Assembly (NCBI GenBank): GCA_031291415.1 | Contig: JARLJB010000382.1 | Span: forward strand, 1-33,452 | DNA from: Telmatospirillum sp. | Lineage (GTDB): Bacteria > Pseudomonadota > Alphaproteobacteria > Rhodospirillales > Magnetospirillaceae | Direction of reading: 5' to 3' | DNA length: 33,452 nucleotides | Shown here: piece by piece, positions 3,738-33,131 of the stretch | Layout of the letters: each line of letters starts with the position of its first letter | Position numbering within the stretch: the stretch's first letter is position 1 | Notes under the pieces: model-generated | What the model saw: only the letters and a program-made list of their open reading frames with translations | Databases searched by the model: none | Told to the model about the DNA's origin: nothing | Position numbers and translations under genes: made by a program

Positions 3738-4634
3738 ATGCGGCGGGCCGTCGACAAACATCTGTTGAAATCGTTGCTCGGCCTCGCATCTCTGGTCGAG
3801 TTGCGCGATCCTTACACTGGCGGACATGCATGGCGTGTCGGGCAATTCTCCAAGCATCTGGCGCTGGGTGTCGGTCTCGACCGCGATCAGGTGTTCCTGG
3901 CGCAACTGGGCGGATTCCTGCACGATCTTGGCAAGGTTGGCATTCCCGACGCGGTCTTGCGCAAACCGGATCGTCTGACGGAAGACGAATTCACGCTGAT
4001 CAAAACCCATCCGGCGATCGGCAGCGACCTGTTGGCCGACCATCCTTTGGCCGATTTGGCCCGGGACGCCGTTCGTCATCACCATGAACGGCCGGACGGG
4101 CGCGGCTATCCTGACGGGTTGGCGGGCGAGGATTGCCCCGTGGTGGCACGGATCGTCGGCGTCGCCGATGCTTTCGATGCGATGACCAGTACCCGAAGCT
4201 ATCGGCGGGGAATGCCGATCGATCGCGCCGTCGGCATTCTGATCGCCGAGCGTGGCCGGCAATTCGACGGAACCATGATCGACGGGTTCGTCTCGCTTTA
4301 TCAGGCCGGTGACACGCTTGGCCAAATCGTCGGCCATTCCGATCATGGGCAGAAGCTGGCCGTTTGTCCGGTTTGCGGCCCGGTTCTGACTGTGCCCCGC
4401 GATGCGACGAACGGTGCACGGCTTTTTTGCCGCAACTGCGGCGGGCTTTACCGGATCGAACGGGAGGATGACGAATGGGTGGTTTATTCTATCGACGCGG
4501 TTCCTGACCCGGGTGCCTTGCGCCCCTATCCCGAGACCGACGTCCAGGATGAGATCTTGCAAGCCATTCCGCCGTCACGACATTCCTTTTTCACCGGTCG
4601 CCTGTCGGCGTTGGTCGGTGCCGGCAGACACTGA
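3738..4634 (+). CDS. HD-GYP domain phosphodiesterase with C-terminal zinc ribbon
   Basis: A 298-aa cytoplasmic protein. Residues 15-190 form an HD-GYP domain, the family that hydrolyses cyclic di-GMP at a metal centre. Visible motifs are RDPYTGGH (23-30), FLHDLGKVGIPD with the HD pair at 62-63, HHHE (114-117), GRGYP (121-125) and VADAFDAMTS (142-151), so the catalytic set looks complete. Unusually, the protein continues into a CPVC (210-213) and CRNC (231-234) pair that should fold as a zinc ribbon, then an acidic tail. No receiver or sensor domain precedes the HD-GYP domain. GGGGGAG precedes the ATG at 3738. It stands alone between the LysR gene and the RND operon. The ribbon may bind protein or nucleic acid; its role is unknown. 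Confidence 0.9.
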   Translation: MRRAVDKHLLKSLLGLASLVELRDPYTGGHAWRVGQFSKHLALGVGLDRDQVFLAQLGGFLHDLGKVGIPDAVLRKPDRLTEDEFTLIKTHPAIGSDLLADHPLADLARDAVRHHHERPDGRGYPDGLAGEDCPVVARIVGVADAFDAMTSTRSYRRGMPIDRAVGILIAERGRQFDGTMIDGFVSLYQAGDTLGQIVGHSDHGQKLAVCPVCGPVLTVPRDATNGARLFCRNCGGLYRIEREDDEWVVYSIDAVPDPGALRPYPETDVQDEILQAIPPSRHSFFTGRLSALVGAGRH

Positions 4635-4715
4635 GAATCGGTGAGACGGCGGGGCGTTCCCGAACACCGCTCCTGTCAATCAAGGGTGGTGTAGAAATTC
4701 CACTACCTCCTCGCG

Positions 4716-4757
4716 TTGACAGTGCGGAAGGGCATAACTAAACTGAACAGTTCAGTT
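4716..4757 (+). promoter_or_regulatory. Sigma70-type promoter with overlapping 17-bp palindromic operator for the RND operon
   Basis: TTGACA (4716-4721), a 17-nt spacer and TAAACT (4739-4744) form a near-consensus promoter. It overlaps AACTGAACAGTTCAGTT (4741-4757), a perfect 8-1-8 palindrome of the kind bound by TetR-family repressors of RND pumps. A start site near 4751 would leave about a 35-nt leader. A repressor on the palindrome would block the promoter directly. No TetR-type gene is adjacent, so the regulator must be encoded elsewhere. Confidence 0.8.
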
Positions 4758-4784
4758 CTGGGCTGGCTATTGGGGTGGAGTGAC

Positions 4785-5969
4785 ATGCGAGTACACGCGT
4801 TTTCGCGTCTGAAGTGGGCCGTTTCGCTGGTCGCCGGAGTGTCTTTCGGGATGGCCGCGGACGCCTGCTTGACCAATGCCTATGCTCAGCAACAGGCGGC
4901 GCCGCCTGCGGTGACCGTCAGTTTTCCGGTGAAGAGGCAGACCGTCGAATGGATGGAGTTCACCGGTCAGTTCTCGTCGGTGGAATATGTCGAGATCCGG
5001 GCGCGGGTCGGTGGCTATCTCACGGAAATCCACTTCACCGATGGTCAGATCGTCAACAAGGGCGATCTGCTTTTTGTCATCGATCCCCGGCCTTATGAAA
5101 TCGCCCTGGCGTCGGCCCGGGCCAACGTCGCCCAGGCGACGGCGTCGCTGGAACTGGCCAAACGGCAATTGGTCCGCGGCGGCGAACTGAGGCAAAAGGA
5201 TTTTCTGGCGGCCAGCGATTACGACACACGGGTGCAGCAAACCAAGGTTGCCGAAGCCGCCCTCGATGTCGCCCGGGCCCAGGTGCGCGATGCCGAACTC
5301 AATCTCGACTTCACGCGGGTGACCGCTCCGGTGAGCGGACGGATCAGCGCGCATCAGGTGAGCATCGGCAATCTGATCAGCGGCGGAGCCGGGGTTTCGT
5401 CACCGACGCTGCTCACCTCGATCGCCTCGCTTGATCCCATCCATTTCAATTTCGACATGAGCGAAGCAGATTACCTGACCTTGCAGCGGGCCGCGGCGAC
5501 CGGCAAGAACACGTCGGTTCGCGACGGGAAACTCATCGTCCAGTTGCGTTTGTCCGACGACAAGGACTGGACGCTGTCGGGGCGTCTTGATTTCATCGAC
5601 AACCAGATCGACCGGAGCGCCGGCACCATCCGGGCGCGCGCCGTCCTCGTCAATCGCGATTTTTCCCTGATTCCCGGCCAATTCGCCAGCATTCGCCTGC
5701 CGCGGACGGCGCCCTATGACGCGCTGCTGGTCCCTGAGGCGGCGGTGTTGACCGATCAGTCGCGCAAGATGGTGCTGACCGTGACGGACGATGGCACTGT
5801 CACGCCCAAGACGATTGTCGTCGGGCCGGTCCAGGACGGCCTGCAGGTCGTGCGAAGCGGTCTTGCCGTCACCGACAAGGTCATCGTCAACGGCCTGATG
5901 CGGGCCCGCCCCGGAGCCAAGGTGACGCCGCAGGCCGCCGACGCCGGCGCCAGCCATCCTGCCAATTGA
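4785..5969 (+). CDS. RND efflux periplasmic adaptor (MexE/AcrA-like)
   Basis: A 394-aa membrane-fusion protein that bridges the inner-membrane RND pump to an outer-membrane channel. The N-terminus has a basic start, a hydrophobic core and an AYA-Q site near residue 34 for signal peptidase I; there is no lipobox. Family features in order: MEFTGQFSSVEYVEIRARV, the lipoyl half-motif GDLLFVIDPRPYE, an alpha-helical hairpin (about residues 105-180), the second lipoyl half TAPVSGRIS, then beta-barrel and membrane-proximal domains. The style is closest to MexE. I chose the ATG at 4785, which has GGTGGAG upstream; the longer in-frame TTG at 4716 is itself the -35 box of the promoter. It is followed after 16 bp by the pump gene. 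No outer-membrane factor gene is present. Confidence 0.93.
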   Translation: MRVHAFSRLKWAVSLVAGVSFGMAADACLTNAYAQQQAAPPAVTVSFPVKRQTVEWMEFTGQFSSVEYVEIRARVGGYLTEIHFTDGQIVNKGDLLFVIDPRPYEIALASARANVAQATASLELAKRQLVRGGELRQKDFLAASDYDTRVQQTKVAEAALDVARAQVRDAELNLDFTRVTAPVSGRISAHQVSIGNLISGGAGVSSPTLLTSIASLDPIHFNFDMSEADYLTLQRAAATGKNTSVRDGKLIVQLRLSDDKDWTLSGRLDFIDNQIDRSAGTIRARAVLVNRDFSLIPGQFASIRLPRTAPYDALLVPEAAVLTDQSRKMVLTVTDDGTVTPKTIVVGPVQDGLQVVRSGLAVTDKVIVNGLMRARPGAKVTPQAADAGASHPAN

Positions 5970-5985
5970 CCCGGGGGAGACTCGC

Positions 5986-8900
5986 ATGAAGCTTTCCCAT
6001 TTCTTTATCGACCGGCCGATTTTCGCCACGGTCGTTTCGGTCTTCATCACGCTGATCGGCGCCATCGCCTATTTCACTTTGCCGTTGGCGCAATATCCCG
6101 AGATCGCGCCGCCGACCATCGTGATCACCGCCAGCTATCCCGGCGCCTCCGGTCCGGTGGTGGCCGACACCGTTGCGACGCCGCTGGAACAGCAGATCAA
6201 CGGCGTCGAGAACATGCTCTACATGTCGAGCCAGGCGACCGGCGACGGCAATCTGCGGCTTACCGTCACCTTCCGGCCCGGCACCAATCTCAACATCGCC
6301 CAGGTCCTGGTGCAAAACCGCGTGGCGCTGGCGACTCCCCAGTTGCCGAGCGAGGTCCAGCGGCTCGGCGTCAATGTGGTGAAAAACTCGCCCGACTTCC
6401 TGATGGTGATCCATCTGATTTCGCCGGACGGGTCGCGCGACCAGCTTTATTTGTCGAATTACGCGACCCTGCAGGTCAAGGACGTGCTGGCCCGTATCGA
6501 CGGAGTGGGCAGCGTCACCGTATTCGGCGCCCGTGATTATGCCATGCGGATCTGGCTCGATCCGGACAAGGTCGCGGCCCATAATTTGACGCCCGGCGAG
6601 GTCGTGAAGGCGTTGCAGGCGCAGAACGTCCAGGTGGCGGCCGGCGTGCTCGGCCAGCCGCCGGTGCCCAAGCCCGGCGCCTTTCAATTCAATGTGCAGA
6701 CGCAAGGCCGCCTCAGCGACCCCGCCCAGTTCGCCAATGTCATCATCAAAGGGGACGCCGATGGCCGCATCACCCGGGTGCGCGACATCGGGCGGGTGGA
6801 ACTGGGAGCGCAGGACTACAACGTCAACGGCTATCTCGACACCACGCAGGCCGTGCCGATCGGCATCTTTCAGCTTCCCGGGTCGAACGCGCTCGATACC
6901 GCCGACCGGCTGCTGAAAAGTATCGACGATTTGTCGAAATCATTTCCACCCGGCGTGAAATACACCGTCGTCTACAACCCGACGGAGTTCATCTCGCAGT
7001 CGGTGCGCGAGGTCTATGTCACCATTTTCGAGGCGATTCTGCTGGTGGTGATCGTCGTCATCGCCTTTCTGCAGACCTGGCGGGCCTCGCTGGTGCCGAT
7101 CGTCGCCATCCCGGTGTCGCTGGTGGGCACCTTCGGCGCCTTGGCGGCCATGGGCTATTCGCTGAACAGCCTGTCGTTGTTCGGACTGGTTCTGGCGGTC
7201 GGCATCGTCGTCGATGACGCCATCGTCGTGGTCGAGAACGTCGAACGCAATTTGCGCGAGGGCATGACTCCCCGCAATGCCGCCCACGTCACCATGGACG
7301 AGGTCGGCGGCGCCTTGGTGGCGATCGCCCTGGTGCTGTCGGCGGTGTTCATTCCGTCGGCTTTCATCCCAGGCATCTCCGGCCAGTTCTTCCGTCAGTT
7401 CGCGGTGACCATCGCCGCCTCGACAATCATCTCGCTGATCGTCTCGCTGACGTTGTCGCCGGCGCTGTGCGCCTTGCTGTTCCAACCGCACAAGGAGCAC
7501 GACGCGACCTCGTCGTCGCCGTTGGCTCGACCTTTCGTCGCCTTTTTTCGCGTGTTCAACCGAACTTTCGACCGGCTGGCCGGCGGCTACGGCGGTCTGA
7601 CACGGCGGTTGGCCAGGATCTCTCTGCTCTTGCTGGCGGTTTATGGCGGGCTGATCGCCCTGACCGGGCTGGAGTTCTACAAGACGCCCAAAGGCTTCAT
7701 TCCGGATCAGGATCAAGGGTATCTGATTACCATCATTCAGCTGCCGCCCGGTGCGTCTTTGGCCCGGACCGACGATGTGTTGCACAGGGCGGTGCAGACG
7801 ATGCTGGATACCCCCGGCGTCGCCCATGTCATTCCATTCGCCGGTCTGGACGGGGCCACCTTCACCGATGCATCGAATTCGGCGACGGCCTTTGTCGTGC
7901 TCGCCCCGTTCGAGGAACGAACCGGGAAGGGACTGTCGGCGGCCAGTATCTTGGGATCGTTGAGCGGCCGTCTTGCGGCGATCCAGGATGCGCTGATCAT
8001 TCCGATCGCGCCGCCGCCGGTCCGTGGCATTGGCACGGCAGGCGGCTGGAAGATGATGATCGAGGACAAGCGCGGCCGGGGACTTCCCGCGCTGGAAGCG
8101 GCGGCCAACGACTTGGCGGCGGCGGCCAACCAGATCCCCGGGCTGGTTCGCGTCTTTACCACCTTCAATAATCGGACCCCCAGCGTTTTTGCCAATGTCG
8201 ACCGCGTGCGCGCCGAAATGCTGGGCGTCTCGGCCGACCAGGTGTCGGAGGCTCTGGAGGTCTATCTCGGTTCAACCTATGTCAACGATTTCAATTATTT
8301 AGGAAGAACATTCCGGGTAACGGCGCAGGCCGACGGCAATTTCCGCACTGACCTTGATGCCATTGGCAATTTGAAAACCCGCAACGCCAAGGGGCAGATG
8401 GTGCCGGTCGGATCCGTCGCCTCCTTCGAGTTCATGACCGGGGCCTATCGCGTGCCGCGTTATGATCTCTACCCGGCGGCCGAGGTGCAGGGGGCGACCT
8501 TGCCTGGCTATTCAAGCGGCTATGCCCTTGAGGCAATGGCTGGTCTCGCCGCCCAACGTCTTCCCGACGGATTTGGTTTCGAATGGACCGAACTCGCGCT
8601 GCAGGAATTGCTGGCCGGAAACAGCGGCATCCTGGTCTTCGCGGCGTCCGTGCTGTTCGTCTTCCTGGTGCTGGCGGCGCAGTACGAAAGCTGGTCGCTG
8701 CCGCTCTCGGTGATCCTGATCGTGCCGATGTGCCTGTTGGCTGCGGTCACCGGACTGCAGATCCGCGGTATTCCGATCAATATTCTGGCGCAGATCGGCT
8801 TTGTCGTGCTGATCGGGCTGGCCGCGAAGAACGCCATCCTGATCGTCGAGTTTGCCCGGCAAGCTGAAACGGAGGGTATGAACCGCATCGATGCCGCCGT

Positions 8901-9189
8901 TCATGCCGCCCGCACCCGGCTGCGGCCGATTCTGATGACCTCGTTCGCGTTCGTATTGGGCGTGTTGCCGCTGGTCTGGGCGGGGGGCGCCGGTTCGGAG
9001 ATGCGGCAGTCGCTGGGCACTGCGGTGTTTTTCGGCATGTTGGGAGTGACCGGATTTGGCCTGATCTTCACGCCGGCCTTCTATGTCGTGGTGCGGCGTC
9101 TTGTCGCCTGGCTGGATCGCCACAAGCCGCACCACCACGCCCACCACCGGCACGACCATCCGGCACCGAAAGTGGAGGGTGGCGCCTAA
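5986..9189 (+). CDS. RND multidrug efflux pump, HAE1 family (MexF-like)
   Basis: A 1067-aa inner-membrane proton/drug antiporter of the hydrophobe/amphiphile efflux family. It starts with the classic [20 protein letters not shown] segment. The porter-domain motifs [14 protein letters not shown] and [17 protein letters not shown], and the proton-relay acidic pair D410-D411 in [17 protein letters not shown], are all present, as are the second-half segment [18 protein letters not shown] and a normal twelve-segment layout. The sequence resembles MexF more than AcrB by eye. GGGGGAG precedes the ATG. The C-terminus after the last membrane segment ends in a His-rich tail ([16 protein letters not shown]). 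It forms an operon with the adaptor and needs a TolC-like channel supplied in trans. The substrate range cannot be read from sequence. Confidence 0.95.
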
Positions 9190-10178: not shown

Positions 10179-10976
10179 ATGTCGAAGAAGGGAATTCCAG
10201 GCAGTGGGAATAAGGTGATCGACGACGGCCATCGCGATCTTAGTCAATGTGTCGAGGAGATTGCACAGCTCTGGCGGTTAGGCGCGGAGACGTCGATTCT
10301 TGCCGAACGGCTGCAGGACCTCCGGGCTCGCGCCCTGAAGCATTTCGAAGAGGAGATCGCCGCTCTCTCAGGATTGAGCGACAGCGTTCTGTTGGCCCAT
10401 ACCGCTCAGCACGAAGAGGTGGTCCGCAAGATCGATGCCGTGCTTGCCGATTTCGCGACGGGAAGCGGCGCTCTACGGTGGTTCGACATGATCGATTCCA
10501 TCGAGCATATGCTGCTTCATCATGAGATCGAGGAGGACGGCGGCTACTTCTCGCTGTTGGGCAAGCAATCGGTCCAGGCCAAAGAACCGTTGATCGGCTG
10601 GACCCGGGATCTGTCTCTTGGCGTCGACTGGATCGATCAGCACCACCGGGCCCTGATCGACACCATCAATGAGATCGGCATGCTGCCCCCGCATTACGAT
10701 CTCGCCGACGCCGATGCCCTGCTGGAACGACTGCGGCGAATTGCCTGGCACCACTTTCATGAAGAGGAAGCGCATCTCGCGCTTGGCGACCCGGCCCGGG
10801 CGCGCAGTCACGTCGCCCAGCATCGCCAACTATCGAGCGAACTCGACAGACTTATTTTTGACGTGCGGTCGCGGCGTGTCGAACTTTCGGGAGCGACCAG
10901 CGAATATCTGGTGCGTTGGCTGATCGACCATATTGTGAACAGCGATAAGCGGGACTTCGCCGGCATGACCCTGTGA
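10179..10976 (+). CDS. Tandem (double) hemerythrin domain protein
   Basis: A 265-aa soluble protein with two hemerythrin four-helix bundles, each keeping a complete set of diiron ligands. Domain 1: H18, H55-x3-E59, H74-x3-H78, H115-x4-D120. Domain 2: H155 or H156, H192-x3-E196, H211-x3-H215, H251-x4-D256. Hemerythrins bind O2 at the diiron site and can sense or store oxygen, or sense NO or redox state. The double form with no attached signalling domain suggests a carrier or sensor that works through a partner; this is inference. GAGAGG overlapping the end of cysE serves as ribosome-binding site for ATG 10179. Its stop codon abuts the stop of the convergent GGDEF-EAL gene exactly. Confidence 0.88.
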   Translation: MSKKGIPGSGNKVIDDGHRDLSQCVEEIAQLWRLGAETSILAERLQDLRARALKHFEEEIAALSGLSDSVLLAHTAQHEEVVRKIDAVLADFATGSGALRWFDMIDSIEHMLLHHEIEEDGGYFSLLGKQSVQAKEPLIGWTRDLSLGVDWIDQHHRALIDTINEIGMLPPHYDLADADALLERLRRIAWHHFHEEEAHLALGDPARARSHVAQHRQLSSELDRLIFDVRSRRVELSGATSEYLVRWLIDHIVNSDKRDFAGMTL

Positions 10977-13226
10977 TCACCCGTGGGGGATGCTGACCGA
11001 TGGATTGGTTGGCCGTGGCACCACCATTTTCATAGCGTGTCCTTTTGTTCGTGACGCTCGAAAGCACAGCTGCTCGAATTCCGTGATCGGCAGTGGTTGG
11101 CTGCAAAGATAACCCTGGTAGGCGTGACATCCTTGTTTCGCCAGGAAGTCCCGCTGCTCCTCCGTTTCCACGCCCTCGGCGATGACAGCCAGACGCAGGC
11201 TGTGGGCCAGGGCGACGATGGTGTGGGCAATCGCCGCGTCATTGGGGTCGGTGAGGATGTCGCGGACGAAGGATTGGTCGATCTTCAGCTGGCTTAACGG
11301 CAGGCGCTTCAGATAGGAAAGCGATGAATAGCCGGTGCCGAAGTCGTCGAGCGAAAAGCTGATGCCGCGATCTCTCAACGTGGTCATGATGGCAATGACG
11401 TCCTCGACGTTGTCGAGGAGCATGCTCTCGGTCAGTTCCAGTTTGAGTTTTTGGGGGTTGGCGCCGGTATAGGCAAGGACCGCCAGAACCTGTTCGACGA
11501 AATTGGTCTGATGGAATTGCAGCGCGCTGACATTCACGGCGATCGTCAGATCGGCCATTTCCCGCCGGTTGGCCCATGTCACCATCTGAGCACAGGCGGT
11601 CTCCAGCGCCCAATGGCCAAGAGCCAGTATCTGCCCTGTCTCCTCGGCCAGTCGAATAAACTCACCGGGCGGGACCACGCCGCGCTCGGGATGTTGCCAG
11701 CGAATCAAAACCTCGGCGCCGACCAGACGATCGTCTTCTATTTGTGGTTGGTAATATAGGCGGAATTGCTCTTCCTTTATTGCTATACGCAAACTTTCTT
11801 CCAAGTCAGCCCGCTGTTTTACCGCAAGCTGCAACTCCGGATTAAAGAATCTAAGGGTGTTCCGGCCTGATGATTTTGCCTGGTACATGGCAATATCAGC
11901 TTGTTTCATAAGGTCATCGATACTTGCGTGATGCTCACCGAATAATGCCGCGCCGATGCTTGCCGTGCACCGATGTTCGTGAGGAGGCAACTGATATGGG
12001 GGGGTGAGGGTCGCCAGGATCTTCTCGCCGACGCTCTTGATTTGAGCGGCCGCCTCGTCTGGGATCTCGCTCAGGTCTTCCAGCATGACCATGAATTCGT
12101 CACCGCCCAGGCGGGCCACCGTGTCGCCCTCGCGGACGCATCGGGCGAGACGCTCGGACACCTGTTGCAGCAGCAGGTCGCCTTCGGCATGGCCGAAGGT
12201 GTCGTTCAGCATTTTGAAGTTGTCGAGGTCAATGAACAGCAGAGCCCCTTCGCGCTTGCTGCGGACGCTGGCCGCCAGCGCCTGTTTCAGTCGATCGAGC
12301 AGGAGACGACGATTGGGCAGGCGGGTGAGAGGGTCATAGAACGCCAGTTCCTTGATCTGTTCCTCCGCCGCCTTGCGGATGGTGATGTCGCTCGAAATCC
12401 CAACAAACTTGGAGATTTCTCCGGTTTCGTCGCGAACCACCGAGATGGAAAGCCATTCGGGGTAGATGTCGCCGTTTTTGCGCCGGTTCCAGATTTCTCC
12501 CTGCCAATGTCCATCGGCCAGAAGTCGCGTCCACAAGGCGGTGTAGAAGCTGGGGTCGTGCAGCCCCGAATGCAAAATTCGAGGATTGTTGCCCACGACT
12601 TCTGCGGCCTCGTAGCCGGTGATCCTGGTGAAAGCCGGATTGACGGTGACGATCTTGTTCGTCTCATCGCAAACCATGATGGCTTCGGCTGACGACGCGA
12701 AGATGGTGCCTGCCAGCATCTGGCTTTCCGCGTCGCGCCGCTTGCGGTTCTCAACCTCCATGCTGAGGCCCTGATTGGCTTTTTGCAGCAGGTCGAGCAG
12801 GCGTTGCAGTTCACGGTGACTGCGATAGAGGTCGATGAAGACGCGAACTTTGGAGAGCAGAACCACGTCGTCGATCGGTTTTTCGATGTAGTCGACGGCG
12901 CCGGCGCCGTATCCGCGCAGGCGGTGATGTTCGTCCTTATGGGCCGCTGTGACGAAGATGATGGGCACATCGCGTGTCCGATCCGCGTCGCGAAGCAGTT
13001 CCGCCACTTCGTAGCCGTCGATGTCGGGCATCTGCACGTCGAGCAGAATCAGCGCGAAATCATGGTCGAGCGACAAGGCCAGTGCTTCGTTGCCCGAGCT
13101 GGCGGCGATCACCTCGACGTCCGCCTTGGCCAGGAGGCGTTTCAGGGCGACGAGATTTGCCGTCAGGTCATCGACGATCAATACCTTCGGCAGGGGAGGC
13201 GCCGCGACGGACGCTGCATCGGTCAT
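10977..13226 (-). CDS. Response regulator with PAS, GGDEF and EAL domains
   Basis: A 749-aa cyclic di-GMP output protein, last in a four-gene operon. Residues 13-130 form a receiver domain with the acidic pair D19-D20, phosphoacceptor D63 and K116. A coiled coil (about 135-170) leads to a PAS domain (about 170-285). A GGDEF domain follows with intact GGDEF at 374-378 and an inhibitory-site RxxD at 366-369. Then comes an EAL domain with EVL at 505-507, LTES, DDFGTGYSS (627-635), K648 in LKID and AEGVETEE, so phosphodiesterase residues look complete. Both diguanylate cyclase and phosphodiesterase activity are possible. Its start overlaps the CheB stop by 4 bp (ATGA). The receiver is the probable phosphorylation target of the hybrid kinase, a context-based inference. 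Confidence 0.93.
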   Translation of the reverse strand: MTDAASVAAPPLPKVLIVDDLTANLVALKRLLAKADVEVIAASSGNEALALSLDHDFALILLDVQMPDIDGYEVAELLRDADRTRDVPIIFVTAAHKDEHHRLRGYGAGAVDYIEKPIDDVVLLSKVRVFIDLYRSHRELQRLLDLLQKANQGLSMEVENRKRRDAESQMLAGTIFASSAEAIMVCDETNKIVTVNPAFTRITGYEAAEVVGNNPRILHSGLHDPSFYTALWTRLLADGHWQGEIWNRRKNGDIYPEWLSISVVRDETGEISKFVGISSDITIRKAAEEQIKELAFYDPLTRLPNRRLLLDRLKQALAASVRSKREGALLFIDLDNFKMLNDTFGHAEGDLLLQQVSERLARCVREGDTVARLGGDEFMVMLEDLSEIPDEAAAQIKSVGEKILATLTPPYQLPPHEHRCTASIGAALFGEHHASIDDLMKQADIAMYQAKSSGRNTLRFFNPELQLAVKQRADLEESLRIAIKEEQFRLYYQPQIEDDRLVGAEVLIRWQHPERGVVPPGEFIRLAEETGQILALGHWALETACAQMVTWANRREMADLTIAVNVSALQFHQTNFVEQVLAVLAYTGANPQKLKLELTESMLLDNVEDVIAIMTTLRDRGISFSLDDFGTGYSSLSYLKRLPLSQLKIDQSFVRDILTDPNDAAIAHTIVALAHSLRLAVIAEGVETEEQRDFLAKQGCHAYQGYLCSQPLPITEFEQLCFRASRTKGHAMKMVVPRPTNPSVSIPHG

Positions 13227-13819
13227 CGGCGGCTCCGTCCGTCGTCCATCGAAAGCTGGGTCAAATGATCGGCGATGGCGGCGAGCGGCAGTACGCAGTC
13301 GGCGGCAACGCCGGCAATGGCCGAGGCCGGCATGGCTTTGGCGAAAGCTGTCTCGGGGTCTTCGACGATTGCGTAGCCGCCGCCGGTCTTGATTGTCTTG
13401 AGGCCATTGGTGCCATCGTTGTTGGCGCCGGTGAGGACGACGCCGATCAGTCGATCGCTCCAGACGTCGGCCGCCGACTCGAACAGGACGTCGATGGAGG
13501 GGCGCGAGTTGCAGACCTTGTCATCGACTGACAGTGAGAAGGTCTCATCGTTTTCAATCAGCAGATGGTACCCGGAGGGCGCGATATGGACACGGCCGGC
13601 CTCCACCGGCATCTTGTCCTCCGCCTCCACCACCGGCAGCGCGGTGACGCGGTCCAGCAGACAGGCGAGCATGCTGGGTCCTTCCGTGGAGGTGTGGGCC
13701 ACCACGATGATTGGCAGCGCGAATGTCGCCGGCAGTGGGCCAAGCAGTTGGCGTAAAGCCTCAAGGCCACCGGCGGAGCAGCCAACGACGACGGCACGGA
13801 ACGGCTGTGGGGGGATCAT
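13223..13819 (-). CDS. cheB: CheB-type protein-glutamate methylesterase, no receiver domain
   Basis: A 198-aa CheB catalytic domain that removes methyl groups from glutamyl methyl esters or deamidates glutamine. The triad is visible: S15 in GCSAGGLEAL, H42 in VVAHTSTEG and D135 in LTGANNDGTNGL. It lacks the N-terminal receiver of classical CheB, so phosphorylation cannot activate it in the usual way. The start at ATG 13819 overlaps the CheR stop in ATGA. The open frame extends upstream but is antisense-like inside cheR. Its stop overlaps the start of the GGDEF-EAL gene, again ATGA. No methyl-accepting chemotaxis protein is encoded in the window, so its substrate may be the kinase of the same operon. 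Confidence 0.92.
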   Translation of the reverse strand: MIPPQPFRAVVVGCSAGGLEALRQLLGPLPATFALPIIVVAHTSTEGPSMLACLLDRVTALPVVEAEDKMPVEAGRVHIAPSGYHLLIENDETFSLSVDDKVCNSRPSIDVLFESAADVWSDRLIGVVLTGANNDGTNGLKTIKTGGGYAIVEDPETAFAKAMPASAIAGVAADCVLPLAAIADHLTQLSMDDGRSRR

Positions 13820-14649
13820 GGCGTCGCTCCGGTTTTTTTGAAGATTCGGCAGTCGCGATGAACAGTTTTGAACTGATTGGCGACTTCGGCGAATTGCAGT
13901 GTCTCGCGGGTGCCAAGGCAGAGAAACCCGCCGCGTACCAGGCTGTCGTGAAACAGCCATGCCACCCGGTTTTGCAGGTTGCGATCAAAATAGATCAGTA
14001 CATTTCGACATAGAACCATATGAACTTCGCAGAACACGCCATCCGTAACCAGATTATGATGGGCAAAAACAATATGAGAGCGAATTTCATCTGTAATTTT
14101 TGCGTAATCGTAAGCTGAGTGAAAATATTCAGAGATGACCCCGATTCCACCGGCTTTGCGGTAGCTTGCTTCGCATTCCGCAATGGCGCGTGTGGGATAA
14201 ATTCCTTCTTCGGCAGTGGCGAGCGCCGCGTCGTTGATGTCGGTGGCGTAAATCTGCGATTTTTGCAGTAATCCCATCTCTTTCAGCAGGATGCCGAGCG
14301 AGTAGCATTCTTCGCCGGTGGCGCAGCCGGCCTGCCAGAAGACAATGCGGGGATAGCTGCCCAGCATCGGCAGCACTTCGTCTCGCAATACCAGGAATAC
14401 GGCGGGATCGCGGAACAGTTCCGTCACCGGCACCGACAGGCGGGCGAGAAGCCGGGGCAAAAATCCTTGATCACGAAGCAGACGCGGGATCAAGGCGTCG
14501 ACCGTCACGCAGCCTTCGGATTGAGCAAGGCCTAAAATCCGGCGCTTGAGCGAGGCCCTGGCATAGTTGCGGAAATCGTAGCCATGCCGAAGCCTCAAGG
14601 CTTCAAGGAACAGACTGATCTCAATCTCCTGGATTTCCGCATCCCTCAT
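13816..14649 (-). CDS. cheR: CheR-type protein-glutamate methyltransferase
   Basis: A 277-aa S-adenosylmethionine-dependent methyltransferase that makes glutamyl methyl esters on receptor-type coiled coils. Residues 10-75 form the small helical N-domain. Catalytic-domain motifs are SVPVTELFRDP (72-82), the SAM loop GCATGEECYS (108-117), YATDIND (134-140) and CRNVLIYFD near the C-terminus. There are no extra TPR or PAS domains. It is second in the operon: its ATG overlaps the kinase stop (ATGA) and its stop overlaps the cheB start (ATGA), so the three products should be made in a coupled ratio. The target is not known; no chemoreceptor gene is nearby. Confidence 0.93.
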   Translation of the reverse strand: MRDAEIQEIEISLFLEALRLRHGYDFRNYARASLKRRILGLAQSEGCVTVDALIPRLLRDQGFLPRLLARLSVPVTELFRDPAVFLVLRDEVLPMLGSYPRIVFWQAGCATGEECYSLGILLKEMGLLQKSQIYATDINDAALATAEEGIYPTRAIAECEASYRKAGGIGVISEYFHSAYDYAKITDEIRSHIVFAHHNLVTDGVFCEVHMVLCRNVLIYFDRNLQNRVAWLFHDSLVRGGFLCLGTRETLQFAEVANQFKTVHRDCRIFKKTGATP

Positions 14650-17600
14650 GCAGATTTCCCTTTCGTCGCCAACAGCAGGGCGATCGTCGCCAACAACAGA
14701 TCGATATCGACGGGCTTCGACAGGTATTCATCGGCGCCGGCTTCCAGGCAATGCTCGCGGTCGCCGGGCATCACCTTGGCGGTGAGCGTGATGATCGGCA
14801 ATGTGGCGAAGCGGTGTTGCTTGCGGATCTCACGCATGGTGGTGAGGCCGTCCATGCCCGGCATCATCACGTCCATCACGACGAGCTCGATGCCGGGTGC
14901 TTCGTTCAGCTGGGCCAGCGCCTTATAGCCGTCTTGGGCTAGCCTTACCGTCAGGCCATTGCCGCGGAGCACTTTCGAGAGGGCAAAAGCGTTGCGCATG
15001 TCGTCGTCGACAACCAGAACGGTGTGCCCGGCAAGGCCGTCGCGATTCTCCGTGGATCTTCGGGGCTCGTGCAGATCCGGCGGATGAGCCGACTGCACGG
15101 CGTGCAAGAACAGGCTGACCTCGTCAAGCAGCCGTTCCGGCGATCGGATACCCTTGATGACGATACTGTCCGTGTATTCCCTTAGCCTGAGGTTTTCTTC
15201 ATAGGACAGATCCATGGCGGAGTAGACGACGACCGGCGGCAGAACGATCTGCAGGGCGGCAACACGGTCGAGCAATTCAAAGCCACTGAAGTCGGGGAGC
15301 ATCAGATCGAGGATGACGCAATCGAAATGGCTGGTTCGGAGCATCTCCAGCGCCTGTTCGCCGGTTCGGGCCTCGACGATCTCGACCTGGTCGCTGCGCA
15401 CCAGGAGCGTGGTGGCCCTTCGCGTGGCGGCATCGTCATCGACGATCAGAATCCGGCGCGACTCGGAGCCGAAATCATGACGCAGGCGATCGAAAATCTC
15501 GTCGATCTGTTTCCGGCCGTCCTCCTCCGAGGTCTTGTCCTCCAGGCCGGCGGCACGGCGGGTGATGAAATGCACGGGGATGGAACGCGTTGCCGGATTT
15601 TTCTTTAGAGCTTCCACCACCTCGATTCCGTCACCCTTTCCTGCGGGGCCGGCGTCGAGCAGAATGCCGGCCGGCCTGCACCGGGCAGCGAGCTCGATGC
15701 CAGCGTCGCCGCTGGCGGCTCGCAAGGCCTTGAAACCACGTTGACGAGTCATGTCGCACAACATTTGGGCAAAGGCATCGTTCTTCTCGATGACAAGAAT
15801 GACATCGTCAGAGGACGGCGACGTGTAGGGAGCAGGTGTCCGGTCGACGGTTGCGGCGGCGTCCTGGCCGGGAACGAGCGGCAGGCGGAGGGTGAAGCGA
15901 CTGCCCCGGCCGGGGGTGCTTTCGACATGCACGCGGCCACCCAGCAGTTCGGCCAACCGCGCCGAAATCGTCAAGCCGAGGCCGGTGCCGCCAAATTGCC
16001 GGCTGGTGGTTCCATCGGCCTGTTCGAAGGCGCCGAAAATGCGGTCGAGCTTGTCGGCGGCAATGCCGATGCCGGTGTCGGCGACGGCGATCTCCAACAG
16101 GGCATCCCCGGGCGCGGATTGAGAAACCGAGGCGAGGCTCACGGTGACACCGCCCCGTGGCGTGAATTTGATGGCGTTGCCCACCAGATTATTGAGAATC
16201 TGATCAAGCTTGGCGCGGTCGCCGACGAACACCGGGGGCAGGTCGCCGGCCGTCTCAACGGTCAGGCTGAGCGTCTTGGCCTCGGCCAGGCGCCTGAAAC
16301 GGTGCTCGATGCTGGCGGCGAAATCGTCGAGGCGGATCTGATCGACGATTACCTCCATCTTTCCGGCCTCGACTTTCGAGAGATCGAGGACGTCATTGAT
16401 CAGATGAAGGAGGTGGGTGCCGCTTTCGTGGATGATGCGGGCGGACTCGACCTGTTCGGCATCGAGGTTCCCCGTCTCGTTGCCGCTCAGGCTTTTGGCC
16501 AGGATCAGCAGGCTGTTGAGCGGTGTTCGCAGTTCGTGCGACATGTTGGCAAGGAATTCGGATTTGTAGCGGCTGGCAAGGTCGAGTTCGAGAACGTGGC
16601 GTTGCGATTCTTCGTGAGCGATCTCAAGCGCCGCTGCTTTTCCCGTCAATTCCTCGTTGGTGGATTGCAGTTCCTCGCGCTGGGAGCGCAGTTCCTCTTC
16701 GGAGGCCCGCAATTCCTCGGTCTGCTGAAAGAGAGCGTCGGAACTGGATCGCAATTCTTCGTTGGCCGCCTGCAATTCGTCGCTCTGTGTGCGCAGTTCC
16801 TCTTCCGAAACTTTGAGCTCCTCCGACTGGCGTTGGGTCTCCATCAGCAGCTGCTGTGTCCGCATGGTGCGGTTGAGGATCTCGAGGTTGAGAGCGATTA
16901 CCGGCAGCAATTCGTCGATCAGCGCCCGTTCTGCTTTGCTGAATAGGCGGAAAGCGGCGATTTCGATCACCGCCAGAGTGACGTCCTTGACGACTACCGG
17001 TGCCATCAGGGCCAGCCGCGGCGGCGCCTCGCCAAGTCCTGACGATATCTTCCAATAGCTGGGTGGCAGGTCGGTGTGCAGGACGGTGGCCTTTGCCACG
17101 GCGCATTGTCCGACAAGCCCCTCATTCGGCCGGCATGCCACGTGGGGACGGTCGTTGTTCGCGGGCAAGCCACGGCCGCCGGCCATTTCGAAGCATTCGG
17201 TCCTGCCGTCCCACAGATGGACGGCGACTGCGGCGGCGCCGACCAAAGGCGTCAGACCGTTGGCGAGAGCCTGGGCGAAGCGTTCGGGCGCCTCGGCGGT
17301 CTGCATCATGGCAGACAGTTCAGTGATGCGGCTCTTCACCCACGACCGGTCATTGAGATCCTGAGCGGCGTCCTTGAATACGGTGACGGCCGAGGCCATC
17401 GCCTCGACCTCGCGAAGTCTGAGGCCGGAAGGAATGGCGACGGCCAGGTTGCCCTTCGCCAGCCCGATCATGGAATGCCGAAGTGCATCCAATGGCTGGA
17501 CGATGCCACGCGTAATCAGGACCGCGATGAGCAGTCCGAAGGTCGCGATCGCCGCGAGGAAGGCCAGCAGCCCCAGTTGCGCATCGGCGTGCTCGCGCTT

Positions 17601-18140
17601 GGCTTGGCTTTCGATGAGGCGCGCCTTTCCCATGGCGAAATCGACGACGCCGCCGAATTCCGTAAGAACGGCCCGATCCAGTTTCCGGCTGTTTTGCAAA
17701 AGTGCTGTGATGGCTTCCTGCTGGCGGCCATGCTGGGCGAGCGACAGGACGTCGTCGCGCAGAGGGCGCCATTCGGCAAGCGCCCTTTCCAGCCGGTCGA
17801 AACTCCGGGGATCGCCAAGAAAGCGTTGGCGCGCGTTGGCAAGCCGGGTGGTAATCTGATCGTCCAAGACGGCGATTCGGGCAATATCGGCGTCGATCTC
17901 CGCAGGGCTGGTGGCGGTGACAATTTCCCGAACGAGTTGGCGGCCATTCGAAAAATCGTAGCTGGCTTGCAGGGTCTCGGTGCTGACGGTGAAGGGATGC
18001 TCGTAAAGATCCGACGTGGTCTGCCACAGTTGGTTCATGCTGTGGAGCGCGAAACCGCCAAGAGCGGCCAACAGCAACAGCAAGGCCGCGTATCCCGCAG
18101 CGAGTCTTACGAAAATACTGGCGGTACGCGGCGACGACAT
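14646..18140 (-). CDS. Hybrid sensor histidine kinase (4HB-like, HAMP, GAF, coiled coil, HisKA, HATPase, three receivers)
   Basis: A 1164-aa inner-membrane kinase, first gene of the operon. TM1 is about residues 12-32, a periplasmic helical sensor resembling MCP four-helix bundles spans 33-188, TM2 is about 189-211, and HAMP about 212-265. A GAF-like domain follows (285-420). A Glu-rich heptad coiled coil (432-515) is built of repeated EEL units. HisKA has H535 in SHELRTPLN, and HATPase_c has N655, DTGIGI (688-693) and GGTGLGL. Receiver 1 (778-870) is degenerate. Receiver 2 has D945 and receiver 3 has D1090, both normal. This domain plan matches kinases that phosphorylate separate regulators through their own receivers. 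The stop overlaps cheR by 4 bp. An AT-rich patch upstream of the start probably holds the operon promoter. Confidence 0.93.
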   Translation of the reverse strand: MSSPRTASIFVRLAAGYAALLLLLAALGGFALHSMNQLWQTTSDLYEHPFTVSTETLQASYDFSNGRQLVREIVTATSPAEIDADIARIAVLDDQITTRLANARQRFLGDPRSFDRLERALAEWRPLRDDVLSLAQHGRQQEAITALLQNSRKLDRAVLTEFGGVVDFAMGKARLIESQAKREHADAQLGLLAFLAAIATFGLLIAVLITRGIVQPLDALRHSMIGLAKGNLAVAIPSGLRLREVEAMASAVTVFKDAAQDLNDRSWVKSRITELSAMMQTAEAPERFAQALANGLTPLVGAAAVAVHLWDGRTECFEMAGGRGLPANNDRPHVACRPNEGLVGQCAVAKATVLHTDLPPSYWKISSGLGEAPPRLALMAPVVVKDVTLAVIEIAAFRLFSKAERALIDELLPVIALNLEILNRTMRTQQLLMETQRQSEELKVSEEELRTQSDELQAANEELRSSSDALFQQTEELRASEEELRSQREELQSTNEELTGKAAALEIAHEESQRHVLELDLASRYKSEFLANMSHELRTPLNSLLILAKSLSGNETGNLDAEQVESARIIHESGTHLLHLINDVLDLSKVEAGKMEVIVDQIRLDDFAASIEHRFRRLAEAKTLSLTVETAGDLPPVFVGDRAKLDQILNNLVGNAIKFTPRGGVTVSLASVSQSAPGDALLEIAVADTGIGIAADKLDRIFGAFEQADGTTSRQFGGTGLGLTISARLAELLGGRVHVESTPGRGSRFTLRLPLVPGQDAAATVDRTPAPYTSPSSDDVILVIEKNDAFAQMLCDMTRQRGFKALRAASGDAGIELAARCRPAGILLDAGPAGKGDGIEVVEALKKNPATRSIPVHFITRRAAGLEDKTSEEDGRKQIDEIFDRLRHDFGSESRRILIVDDDAATRRATTLLVRSDQVEIVEARTGEQALEMLRTSHFDCVILDLMLPDFSGFELLDRVAALQIVLPPVVVYSAMDLSYEENLRLREYTDSIVIKGIRSPERLLDEVSLFLHAVQSAHPPDLHEPRRSTENRDGLAGHTVLVVDDDMRNAFALSKVLRGNGLTVRLAQDGYKALAQLNEAPGIELVVMDVMMPGMDGLTTMREIRKQHRFATLPIITLTAKVMPGDREHCLEAGADEYLSKPVDIDLLLATIALLLATKGKSA

Positions 18141-18355: not shown

Positions 18356-19528
18356 CTATTCGGAGATCGGGGCATCCCGGCGATAAGGGCCGCAGTCCGT
18401 CATCTCCTGGATGGTCTCGGTGATCTGTCGCCTTTCCTCGTCGAGGAAGCGGGCGACGGCGCGTCGGAACGATCCGTCGGCGATCCAGTGGGCGCTCCAG
18501 GTTTCGACCGGAAGATAGCCGCGGCTGATCTTATGTTCCCCCTGGGCGCCGGCTTCGACACGGGACAGACCCCGCGAGATGGCGAAGTCGATGGCGCGGT
18601 AATAGCACATCTCGAAATGCAGAAAGCGGAAGTCGCCCTCGGCGCCCCAATTGCGGCCGTAAAGCGTGTCCTTGCCCAGCAGATTGAGCGCGCCGGCCAC
18701 CCAGCGCCCATGCCTTTCGGCCATGATCAGCACGACGCGATCGGCCATCGTTTCTCCCAGCCGGGAAAAGAAATCGCGGGTCAGATAGGCGTTGGCCCAT
18801 TTCTTTTCGACGGTGTCGAGATAAAACCGATAGAAAGCATCCCAGTGCGACTCTTCGATCTCCGCGCCGGTCAGCGTATGGATGGTGACGTCAAGACTAT
18901 TGGCGCGTTCCCGTTCCTTGCGGATGGTTTTGCGTTTGCGCGACGAGAGGGCGGCGAGAAAATCGTCGAAATCACGATAGCCCTGGTTGGTCCAATGATA
19001 TTGTTCGCCAAGGCGCAACAACCAGCCATGCGCCGTCAGCCGTTCCGCTTCGTCGCGGGTAGGGAAGGTGATGTGCGCCGACGACAGTTTGGCCTTTTTG
19101 CAGAGCGTCGTCATGGCCTCGGCGAGGCCTTCCTCCAGCCCCATCTGCAATCCGTCGGGGTGGATCAACAGGCGTGGTCCGGTCACCGGAGTGAAGGGAA
19201 TGGCGCATTGCAGCTTTGGGTAATAGCGGCCGCCGGCCTTGTGCCAGGCGTCGGCCCAGGCCCAATCGAAGACATATTCGCCGTAAGAATGGGTTTTCGC
19301 ATAAAGAGGCGCACAGCCCAGCAGCTTGCCGCTTGGGCTTTCGGCGACCAGATGGCAAGGCGTCCAGCCGCTGGCCGGCGCCGCCGAGCCGGAGTCCTCC
19401 ATGGCGCGGAGAAAGGCATGAGTGCAAAATGGGTTGTCGTCACCGGCACAGGCGTCCCAGGCCTCGGCAGGAATGTCCGAGATTGCCCGGACACTGCTGA
19501 TCGCCACGCCGTCGCTTCCATCGGGCAT
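18356..19528 (-). CDS. GNAT-like N-acyltransferase, COG3146 family
   Basis: A 390-aa soluble protein of the GNAT-like family often labelled peptidogalycan biosynthesis protein or predicted N-acyltransferase. Recognisable pieces are NPFCTHAFLRAMEDSGSA, YVFDWAWADAW, FTPVTGPRLL, the basic segment SSRKRKTIRKERERA, ALNLLGKDTLYGRNWG and EAGAQGEHKISRGY, which are strongly conserved in this family. The biochemical reaction is not established, though a GNAT fold transferring an acyl group is expected. I chose ATG 19528; an in-frame TTG at 19594 gives 22 more residues but would leave no room for the divergent gene's start region. It is divergent from the DUF445 gene with 68 bp between starts. Confidence 0.82.
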   Translation of the reverse strand: MPDGSDGVAISSVRAISDIPAEAWDACAGDDNPFCTHAFLRAMEDSGSAAPASGWTPCHLVAESPSGKLLGCAPLYAKTHSYGEYVFDWAWADAWHKAGGRYYPKLQCAIPFTPVTGPRLLIHPDGLQMGLEEGLAEAMTTLCKKAKLSSAHITFPTRDEAERLTAHGWLLRLGEQYHWTNQGYRDFDDFLAALSSRKRKTIRKERERANSLDVTIHTLTGAEIEESHWDAFYRFYLDTVEKKWANAYLTRDFFSRLGETMADRVVLIMAERHGRWVAGALNLLGKDTLYGRNWGAEGDFRFLHFEMCYYRAIDFAISRGLSRVEAGAQGEHKISRGYLPVETWSAHWIADGSFRRAVARFLDEERRQITETIQEMTDCGPYRRDAPISE

Positions 19529-19596
19529 GCCTGTTTTTCCATTGGCTGTGAAGAGGCTGGACTTTACATGGGGTGTGTTGGATCCGAGGTTCAAGT

Positions 19597-30821: not shown

Positions 30822-30962
30822 CTAATCGCCACATCCGCAACCGCATCCACCACCGCCTTTTTTACCGGTGACCTTTTGGCGCAGCCGGCGCGGCAGCGCG
30901 CGCCAGCCGAGCCAGAGGGCGGCGGCGGTCACCACCGCCAGAACCAGCAGTCCTTGCATCAT
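30822..30962 (-). CDS. FeoB-associated Cys-rich membrane protein
   Basis: A 46-aa protein with one hydrophobic segment (about residues 3-20, GLLVLAVVTAAALWLGW), a basic stretch and a Gly-Cys tail (GGGGCGCGCGD). This matches the small Cys-rich proteins encoded after feoB in many bacteria, in the place of FeoC. The cysteines may bind iron or sense redox state; the function is not established. Its ATG overlaps the feoB stop as ATGA, so translation is coupled. Confidence 0.85.
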   Translation of the reverse strand: MMQGLLVLAVVTAAALWLGWRALPRRLRQKVTGKKGGGGCGCGCGD

Positions 30963-32836
30963 TTCAGTGCCCAGGTAGCAATGTTGTAGGTCAGAAAGGC
31001 GGCTCCGTAAGCCAGGACCGTCATATAGACGAAGAGAACCGCCGGCCAGCGCCAGGAATTGGTTTCGCGCTTGACCACCGCCAGGGTCGAGGCGCATTGC
31101 GGCGCGAAGATGTACCAGGCAAGCAGGGCGAGCGCCGTCGGCAAGCTCCACTGGGCGGCGAGGATCGGCTGCAGCGCGCTGCCCACTTCCTCTCCGGTGG
31201 CCGAGAGCGCGTAGACGGTTCCAAGAGCACCGACCGCCACCTCGCGGGCCGCCATACCGGGAATGAGGGCCACGGCGATCTGCCAGTTGAAGCCGATGGG
31301 GGCCAGGATCGGCTGAATCCAATGACCGACCATGCCGGCAATGGAATAGTTGATGGCCGGGTCCAGCGCGCCGGCCGGGGCGCCGGGGAACGAGCTCAGG
31401 AACCAGATCAGGATCATGATCGCCAGAATGATGGTGCCGGCCCGCTGCAGGAACATGGCGGCCCGCTGCCAAAGGCCGAGGGCGACATTCTTCAGCCGGG
31501 GCCATTTGTAGGCCGGCAGTTCCATCAGGAAGGGCTCCGCCACCTGGCGCCAGACCAGTCGTTTCATCACCCAGGCGACGATAAGCGCCGACATAATTCC
31601 GGTGGCGTAAAGGCCGAACATCACCAGTCCCTGCAGGCTGAGGACGCCGGCCACCTCGGTCTGCGGCACAAAGGCCGAGATGATCAGCGTGTAAACCGGA
31701 ATGCGGGCTGAACAGGTCATCAAGGGGGCGACCAGGATGGTCGCCAGACGATCGCGCCGGTTCTCGATGACACGGGTCGCCATGATGCCGGGGATGGCGC
31801 AGGCGAAGCTCGACAATAGCGGAATGAACGCCCGGCCGTGCAGGCCGGCGCCGCCCATCAGGCGGTCCATCAGGAAGGCGGCGCGCGCCATATAGCCGAA
31901 ATCTTCGAGCAGAATGATGAAGAGGAAAAGGATCAGGATCTGCGGCAGGAACACCACGACGCTGCCGACGCCGGCGATCAGTCCATCGGTCAGCAGGCTG
32001 CGCAGCATGCCGTCGGGCATCAGGGTCTGGATTTGCGTGGCCAGCAGATCAAAGGCGGCCTTGATGCCGTCCATCGCCGGTGTCGCCCAGGCGAAAACCG
32101 CCTGAAACATGAAGAACAGGACGCCGAGCAGGATGACCAGGCCCCACACCGGGTGCAGCAACACGCGGTCGAGCCGTGCCGTCAGGCGCTGGTCGCCCGG
32201 ACGGAAGGCGCAGACTTTGAGAATGCGTTCGGCTTCCGCGTGGGCGTCGCGGATTTCCTGGCTGGTCGGTTCGCGCCAGGAGATCGGGCCGGCGGTGACG
32301 GCGGTGGCACGAACCGCCAGGCTGTCGATGGCCTCGAACAGCGAAGAAACACCGCCTTTACGGACGGCGACGGTCGGCACCACCGGGATTCCCAATTCGA
32401 CCGACAGCCTTTCGATGTCGATTTCGCAGCCTTGCCGCTTGGCGATATCGATCATGTTGAGGGCGAGAATCAAGGGGCGGTTCAGCGACTTCAGCTCAAG
32501 CACCAGGCGCAGAACCAGGCGAAGGTTGGTGGCGTCGGCGACGCAAATCAGGGCATCGGGAAGTACTTCGCCGTCCAGGCGGCCCAGCACCACGTCGCGG
32601 GTCACCGCCTCGTCGGGGCTGCGTCCGCGCAGCGAATAGGTCCCCGGCAGATCAAGCAGGCGGACTGTTCTGCCCTGTGGTGTCGTCAGAGCGCCTTCTT
32701 TCCGTTCGACGGTGACTCCCGGATAGTTGGCAACTTTTTGATGATGTCCGGTCAGCGCGTTGAACAGCGCGGTTTTGCCGCAATTTGGGCATCCGACCAG
32801 GGCGAAGCCGGGAACCGAAAGACTGGCGGTGGACAT
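30959..32836 (-). CDS. feoB: Ferrous iron transport protein B
   Basis: A 625-aa inner-membrane Fe2+ transporter with an N-terminal G-protein domain. GTPase motifs: G1 GCPNCGKT (15-22), G3 DLPG (62-65), G4 NMID (127-130). A linker domain leads to about eight membrane segments with the Gate-type motifs FACAIPGIMATRVIENRRDR and MTCSARIPVYTLII. C-terminal hydrophobic segments end at WALK. It is shorter than E. coli FeoB (773 aa), but all core parts are present. GGAG precedes ATG 32836, overlapping the feoA stop region (4 bp gap). The frame is open upstream, but that stretch is feoA in another frame. The operon order is feoA, feoB, Cys-rich protein. Confidence 0.96.
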   Translation of the reverse strand: MSTASLSVPGFALVGCPNCGKTALFNALTGHHQKVANYPGVTVERKEGALTTPQGRTVRLLDLPGTYSLRGRSPDEAVTRDVVLGRLDGEVLPDALICVADATNLRLVLRLVLELKSLNRPLILALNMIDIAKRQGCEIDIERLSVELGIPVVPTVAVRKGGVSSLFEAIDSLAVRATAVTAGPISWREPTSQEIRDAHAEAERILKVCAFRPGDQRLTARLDRVLLHPVWGLVILLGVLFFMFQAVFAWATPAMDGIKAAFDLLATQIQTLMPDGMLRSLLTDGLIAGVGSVVVFLPQILILFLFIILLEDFGYMARAAFLMDRLMGGAGLHGRAFIPLLSSFACAIPGIMATRVIENRRDRLATILVAPLMTCSARIPVYTLIISAFVPQTEVAGVLSLQGLVMFGLYATGIMSALIVAWVMKRLVWRQVAEPFLMELPAYKWPRLKNVALGLWQRAAMFLQRAGTIILAIMILIWFLSSFPGAPAGALDPAINYSIAGMVGHWIQPILAPIGFNWQIAVALIPGMAAREVAVGALGTVYALSATGEEVGSALQPILAAQWSLPTALALLAWYIFAPQCASTLAVVKRETNSWRWPAVLFVYMTVLAYGAAFLTYNIATWALK

Positions 32837-32840
32837 GATC

Positions 32841-33131
32841 TTACTCCACGGGGCGAACGAGGATGGCGTTGGCGTCGGCGCGACGGACGGCGATGGTGAT
32901 GTCGTCGACGCGTACGGCGATGGGGTCGTGCTGGATCGGACCGTCGTGCAGGATCTCGAGGGCGGCTCCCTCGACGAATCCCATTTCGAGAAGACGGCGT
33001 TCCATTTCCGACCAGGGGATACTGAGACCTTCGATCGAAACCAAGCCACTGACGATGCCCCGCCATCCCTTGGGACATTGGCCCAGTCGAAAGTCTTTGG
33101 TGGTGGGGCTATCGTTCAAACGGGTCGACAC
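32841..33131 (-). CDS. feoA: Ferrous iron transport protein A
   Basis: A 96-aa protein with an SH3-like FeoA domain that assists FeoB. The core RLLEMGFVEGAALEILHDGP followed by DPIAVRVDDITIAVRRADAN is typical. The N-terminal 35 residues are longer than in the shortest FeoA proteins. Start uncertain: I prefer GTG 33131, with GGAG about 11 nt upstream; TTG 33152 is in frame but has no ribosome-binding site. It is the first gene of the feo operon, with a Fur-box-like site about 40-60 bp upstream. Confidence 0.85.
   Translation of the reverse strand: MSTRLNDSPTTKDFRLGQCPKGWRGIVSGLVSIEGLSIPWSEMERRLLEMGFVEGAALEILHDGPIQHDPIAVRVDDITIAVRRADANAILVRPVE

Follow-up and report, generated by a model that had tools for sequence, protein, structure and literature searches.

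A hybrid histidine kinase with its own CheR and CheB in Telmatospirillum sp.: a conserved chemoreceptor-free module and a putative methyl-accepting coiled coil

A four-gene operon of the alphaproteobacterium Telmatospirillum sp. is described here. It is found on the minus strand, at positions 10977-18140, of a 33,452-nucleotide stretch of DNA (assembly GCA_031291415.1, contig JARLJB010000382.1), called the window below. The genes encode a hybrid histidine kinase, a CheR-type methyltransferase, a CheB-type methylesterase and a response regulator with GGDEF and EAL domains. That CheR and CheB form here a dedicated, chemoreceptor-free module on a cyclic di-GMP (c-di-GMP) kinase pathway, of a kind already known, is well supported by the data below. 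The features are the following, from the kinase downstream:

14646..18140, minus strand: hybrid histidine kinase, CfcA-like, 1164 aa (open reading frame and Pfam: 4HB_MCP_1, GAF_2, HisKA, HATPase_c and three REC; coiled coil)
16638..16826, minus strand: coiled-coil linker of the kinase, residues 439-501, putative methyl-accepting stretch (sequence and model)
14646..14649, minus strand: ATGA overlap kinase/CheR (read in the sequence)
13816..14649, minus strand: CheR-type protein methyltransferase, stand-alone, 277 aa (open reading frame and Pfam: CheR_N, CheR)
13816..13819, minus strand: ATGA overlap CheR/CheB (read in the sequence)
13223..13819, minus strand: CheB-type methylesterase without receiver, 198 aa (open reading frame and Pfam: CheB_methylest only)
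13223..13226, minus strand: ATGA overlap CheB/response regulator (read in the sequence)
10977..13226, minus strand: response regulator REC-PAS-GGDEF-EAL, 749 aa (open reading frame and Pfam)

All four reading frames are uninterrupted. Open reading frames (ORFs) and junction reads agree on the four minus-strand genes and their three 4-bp ATGA overlaps, as an earlier sequence-only reading of the window had described them. The Pfam scan bears out the domain make-up given there, including a CheB reduced to its CheB_methylest domain, and adds to the kinase a 4HB_MCP_1 sensor, a GAF domain and three REC domains. The sensor is flanked, as read by eye, by two hydrophobic stretches, and the predicted phospho-accepting position of HisKA is His535. 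The CheB frame has an alternative start farther upstream, at 13960, giving 245 aa; the ATGA start is nevertheless reasonable, since the 198-aa version already contains CheB_methylest from its residue 10 onwards. Among proteins with a solved structure, both CheR and CheB match chemotaxis enzymes. Two basic residues of the CheR N-domain, the pair R36/R37, are conserved in 98% and 97% of the sequences (n=112) and S15, H42 and D135 of CheB in at least 95% (n=77); these residues presumably have the roles commonly ascribed to them. The structure predicted for CheR was of low quality (mean predicted local distance difference test score, pLDDT, 47.7) and was left out of account. The regulator carries RxxD at 365, GGDEF at 374, EVLIRW at 505, DDFGTG at 627 and AEGVE at 683, and we take its GGDEF, RxxD and EAL motifs to have their usual meaning.

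The conservation of this gene order was considered in 109 loci (L044-L154 minus L055 and L063). These were chosen as the best matches to the window CheR, so that the set favours conserved cases, and distant CheBs may be missed because the domain profiles were seeded by the window's own proteins. A same-strand kinase lies close upstream of CheR in 98 of the 109 loci, and kinase, CheR, CheB and a REC output are found together on one strand in 73. Lack of conservation in relatives, an outcome that the sequence-only reading had named as telling against it, thus did not occur. The other loci comprise 24 with kinase and CheR and no recognised CheB, a single one with kinase, CheR and CheB and no REC output, and 11 with no same-strand kinase close upstream, 9 of which also lack CheB. 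Of the 100 loci having an upstream same-strand kinase, 37 show the 4-bp overlap between kinase and CheR, which is therefore common rather than special. A REC-bearing gene is found downstream in 100 of the 109 loci. The first such protein contains a kinase domain in 76 loci, GGDEF or EAL in 14 and neither in 10, none being found in 9. The gene order of the window thus represents the c-di-GMP form of a wider module. In the loci L147-L154, a fused CheB-CheR of about 560-620 aa, forming its own branch in the CheR tree, is encoded between the kinase and the REC gene, and the kinase coils are rich in Gln.

As regards distribution, 61 near genomes (own genome included) yielded, among the matches listed, 11 matches to the window CheR at 50-69% identity outside the own genome and, beyond these, none above 40%. 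A draw across the class added 7 matches at 43-48%, above a step to 39%. In a draw across the phylum, identities fell from 58% to the mid-30s without a clean gap, among the matches listed, the lower end corresponding to operon versions with CheB and CheR fused. A plasmid search returned 375 matching records, all below 60% identity.

No chemoreceptor (methyl-accepting chemotaxis protein, MCP), CheA or CheW was found among the 24 Pfam-scanned ORFs of the window (138 ORFs in total). Whole-genome searches for MCPsignal and CheW gave no match on the window contig; CheA was not searched genome-wide. The absence noted by the sequence-only reading thus holds within these limits, and the operon is not a cluster uniting MCP, CheA and CheW, as an MCP-CheA-CheW chemosensory pathway would be. 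Taken by itself, however, such an absence says little, because the window is one whole contig of a draft whose other contigs contain 92 MCP-signal and 16 CheW matches. For a draft of 7.1 Mb, 92 MCP-signal matches looks like a large number.

More information is brought by the CheR tree (maximum likelihood, 75 rows, midpoint root, one own-genome gene being present twice as L007 and L063). The window CheR forms a single clade (100/99) with the operon CheRs sampled, 45 stand-alone ones drawn at random and 10 fused ones, and the large CheB-CheR fusions are the neighbour group. Of the nine other own-genome CheRs, seven lie outside (100/98), and each of these has an MCP or CheW match no farther than about 2 kb away. 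The separation of the window CheR from these seven argues against ordinary chemotaxis in trans. The two remaining own-genome CheRs fall with the fusions; one (contig C105) belongs to a large CheB-CheR-kinase-REC fusion with similar heptads and the other (contig C343) to a 1496-aa open frame.

The closest known system is cfcABCDE of Pseudomonas putida KT2440. It begins with a hybrid kinase (CfcA, PP_3761), described elsewhere as a CHASE3/GAF hybrid kinase (PMC6849547), followed by the CheR- and CheB-like genes cfcB and cfcC and by a REC protein, CfcD (PMC4951495). The window shows the same arrangement, the hybrid kinase gene immediately preceding those for CheR and CheB on a single strand and a REC-led protein being encoded next. 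The P. putida kinase is required for the c-di-GMP output of a GGDEF/EAL response regulator, CfcR (Rup4959), with H496 of CfcA and D65 of CfcR both needed (PMC4951495). A difference is that CfcR is described as an orphan regulator encoded outside cfcABCDE, whereas the GGDEF-EAL protein is the product of the fourth gene in the window. According to the same paper, cfcA and cfcR orthologues occur together in P. resinovorans, and chemotaxis is said to have been excluded as a role of the P. putida cfc relative, with reference to Garcia-Fontana 2013 (PMC4951495). Some of the related loci have five genes, kinase-CheR-CheB-REC/histidine kinase-REC. At L103, compared by primer sites, four of the five CfcA primers published have sites in order, with 0-5 mismatches, and the fifth has none. 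The sequence-only reading had missed that this kind of operon was already published (cfcABCDE; PMC4951495), as well as the minority status of the c-di-GMP output and the frequent absence of CheB. P. putida CheR1, which has a biofilm phenotype, was considered as a possible cfc CheR and rejected, since cheR1 is described as part of a wsp-like cluster (PMC6363813).

Other systems resemble the window more partially. The large CheB-CheR(-PAS-histidine kinase-REC) fusions have the nearest CheRs in the tree and E-E-L-type heptads behind CheR, found in 10 of the 10 examined; they are single polypeptides, whereas CheB, CheR and the kinase are separate genes in the window. Wsp and other chemosensory pathways with alternative cellular functions also associate CheR and CheB with a c-di-GMP response regulator. 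Wsp has an MCP, CheA and CheW, in contrast to the scanned ORFs of the window. An instance of CheR acting on a two-component protein comes from Salmonella, where it reportedly methylates an Arg of the response regulator PhoP, in which methylated Glu/Asp are also present (PMC8546571). There, however, a chemotaxis CheR targets a response regulator at Arg, and, as far as the abstract goes, it is not encoded beside PhoP (PMC8546571). A literature search, most subscription journals lying outside its scope, returned no title or abstract beginning on methylation of such a kinase or on CheR-methylated kinases, and nothing on CheB-CheR fusions.

The most likely single candidate for the substrate of CheR and CheB would be the coil of the kinase between GAF and HisKA. 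This linker contains nine heptads, seven of which are E-E-L (first E at 440, 447, 461, 475, 482, 489 and 496). A structure model of kinase residues 265-605, made with four sequences, predicts a single helix from 402 to 552, unbroken into HisKA (mean pLDDT 81.2; block means of 88-95 in the linker). The 12 best of the 92 own-genome MCP matches all contain, as read by eye, E-[EQ]-[LM], aligning with the EQLTAT stretch of chemotaxis protein I, which we take to be its methylation region; the E-E-L heptads of the kinase are in the same register as the MCP methylation heptads.

The linkers of 103 CheR-linked kinases, defined as the nearest upstream same-strand kinases, were compared (the window and the duplicate pair L041/L045 included; L081 and L082, without a HisKA motif, left out). 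The hexapeptide E[EQ][LM]x[ASTGV][ST] occurs 0.74 times per linker; phase-kept shuffles give 0.19, none of the 200 exceeding 0.33. It is present in just 3 of 35 further kinases from the loci, a control set into which some second kinases of these clusters entered. In the window kinase, it is found four times (EELKVS, EELRSS, EELRAS, EELQST). A linker profile, made from 24 CheR-linked kinases and extending to the first HisKA residues, gave 108 matches in 79 of 398 genomes. Of the 108, 89 lie within 9 kb of a CheR among the CheR matches listed, and 86 of 103 orthologous-class CheRs have a linker match within that distance. In the own genome, the profile matches just two places, the window kinase and one CheB-CheR fusion. 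Nineteen matches belong to kinases lacking a near CheR (18 with a HisKA motif), called far kinases below. Heptads of the N-E-E-L type occur in 75 of 103 CheR-linked versus 6 of 18 far kinases (Fisher p 0.002, relatedness ignored and L041/L045 being one locus), a difference that could be explained by shared ancestry.

From these data, a mechanism may be proposed. By analogy with P. putida, the membrane hybrid kinase would pass phosphoryl groups to the receiver of the GGDEF-EAL enzyme, thereby setting c-di-GMP. The dedicated CheR and CheB would target the kinase instead of chemoreceptors, CheR esterifying and CheB de-esterifying Glu residues of the E-E-L heptads between GAF and HisKA. Esterification would shift the signalling state of the helix and provide a feedback or a set-point, as in MCPs. 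To a cfc-type module in which a dedicated CheR/CheB pair acts on the kinase and not on chemoreceptors, and which sets c-di-GMP, we give an even chance. The sequence-only reading had proposed an adaptation circuit outside classical chemotaxis. The part concerning a dedicated kinase/CheR/CheB/c-di-GMP module stands, this module being conserved and its CheR lying apart from chemotaxis-type CheRs; adaptation by methylation of the kinase is plausible. A broader idea, which we put forward tentatively and would not ourselves bet on, is that such kinases and the CheB-CheR fusions might carry a second class of methyl-accepting domain, an E-E-L coil before HisKA with the acidic pair at MCP heptad steps, permitting direct adaptation by CheR/CheB without receptor arrays.

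Several observations weigh against methylation of the kinase coil as the function of this module. The idea that the linker would be unique to CheR-linked kinases had to be rejected: the same coil is present in kinases without a near CheR and thus belongs to the kinase family, so that CheR and CheB may have been added to a coil that does not owe its existence to them. The profile, built from 24 CheR-linked kinases and ending in the first residues of HisKA, favours the orthologues of these kinases. For 19 of the 108 linker matches, no CheR is nearby among the CheR matches listed, and 17 of the 103 orthologous-class CheRs lack a linker match at a distance of up to 9 kb. Two of the 19 far kinases are cut by contig ends, one is 11 kb from a CheR and one has CheB only; for the remaining 15, neither CheR nor CheB was present in the fetched stretch. 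For six far kinases from five genomes, the best CheR match had E values of 3e-14 to 2e-19 and 26-34% identity. The hexapeptide, a pattern chosen after viewing the sequences, is as frequent in far (9/18) as in CheR-linked kinases (51/103). The stricter pattern EExx[AST][ST] is found in 7 of 19 far and 32 of 103 CheR-linked kinases. CheB is not recognised in 33 of the 109 loci overall. In 18 of the 24 CheB-less loci with kinase and CheR, CheR is contiguous or overlapping with the REC gene that follows, and CheB is hence truly absent there; likewise, two Magnetospirillum loci outside the 109 (L042, L043) keep CheR and lack CheB. Methylation in such loci may proceed in one direction, or be reversed by another CheB. 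Finally, phosphotransfer to the window regulator is argued from P. putida by analogy, and other cfc mutants reportedly keep the crinkle phenotype, according to a remark of the authors on unpublished work (PMC4951495).

Three other explanations can be envisaged. The E-E-L coil might merely be a signalling or dimerisation helix, CheR and CheB serving in regulation or as a scaffold (sensing S-adenosylmethionine or S-adenosylhomocysteine, for instance) without modifying the kinase. Such a view, which we hold to be unlikely, would agree with the far kinases, with the loci devoid of CheB and with the predicted continuous helix into HisKA; it is countered by the conservation of the catalytic-site residues in both enzymes, which would be difficult to account for in the absence of catalysis, by the enrichment of MCP-like steps over phase-kept shuffles and by the bias of N-E-E-L heptads towards CheR-linked kinases. 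It is rather improbable that CheR and CheB modify, instead of the linker, a receiver belonging to either the kinase or the REC output protein, since some large CheB-CheR fusions without an annotated REC still keep the heptads; the frequency of REC-bearing downstream genes and the reported methylation of PhoP by Salmonella CheR (PMC8546571) are in favour of this idea. That CheR and CheB are ordinary adaptation enzymes acting in trans on MCPs and placed beside the kinase by chance is very unlikely in view of the kinase linkage, of the position of CheR outside the group of seven MCP/CheW-linked CheRs and of the chemotaxis role said to be excluded for the P. putida relative (PMC4951495), despite the many MCP-signal matches of the genome, the likeness of both enzymes to chemotaxis enzymes of known structure and a CheB that, without receiver, is not tied to a CheA.

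The operon is bordered by a convergent hemerythrin-domain gene (10179-10976) and, on its other flank, by a FemAB-like gene (18356-19594), both of which look unrelated. Elsewhere in the window, the plus strand encodes at 3738-9189 an HD_5 domain protein followed by an HlyD-type and AcrB-type efflux pair, and a FeoB-like ferrous iron transporter is found at 30959-33049, with a GTG start in the ORF list. Scans for tRNAs and Rfam families added nothing; promoter-like motifs were as numerous as in shuffles and terminator-like ones fewer.

In chemoreceptors, Glu methylation is an established form of signal memory. That a conserved module should have a CheR and a CheB of its own, and no chemoreceptor, suggests that another substrate exists, and the 63-residue stretch named here makes the question of this substrate directly testable. 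If the coil of the kinase is this substrate, adaptation by methylation would extend to two-component and c-di-GMP control.

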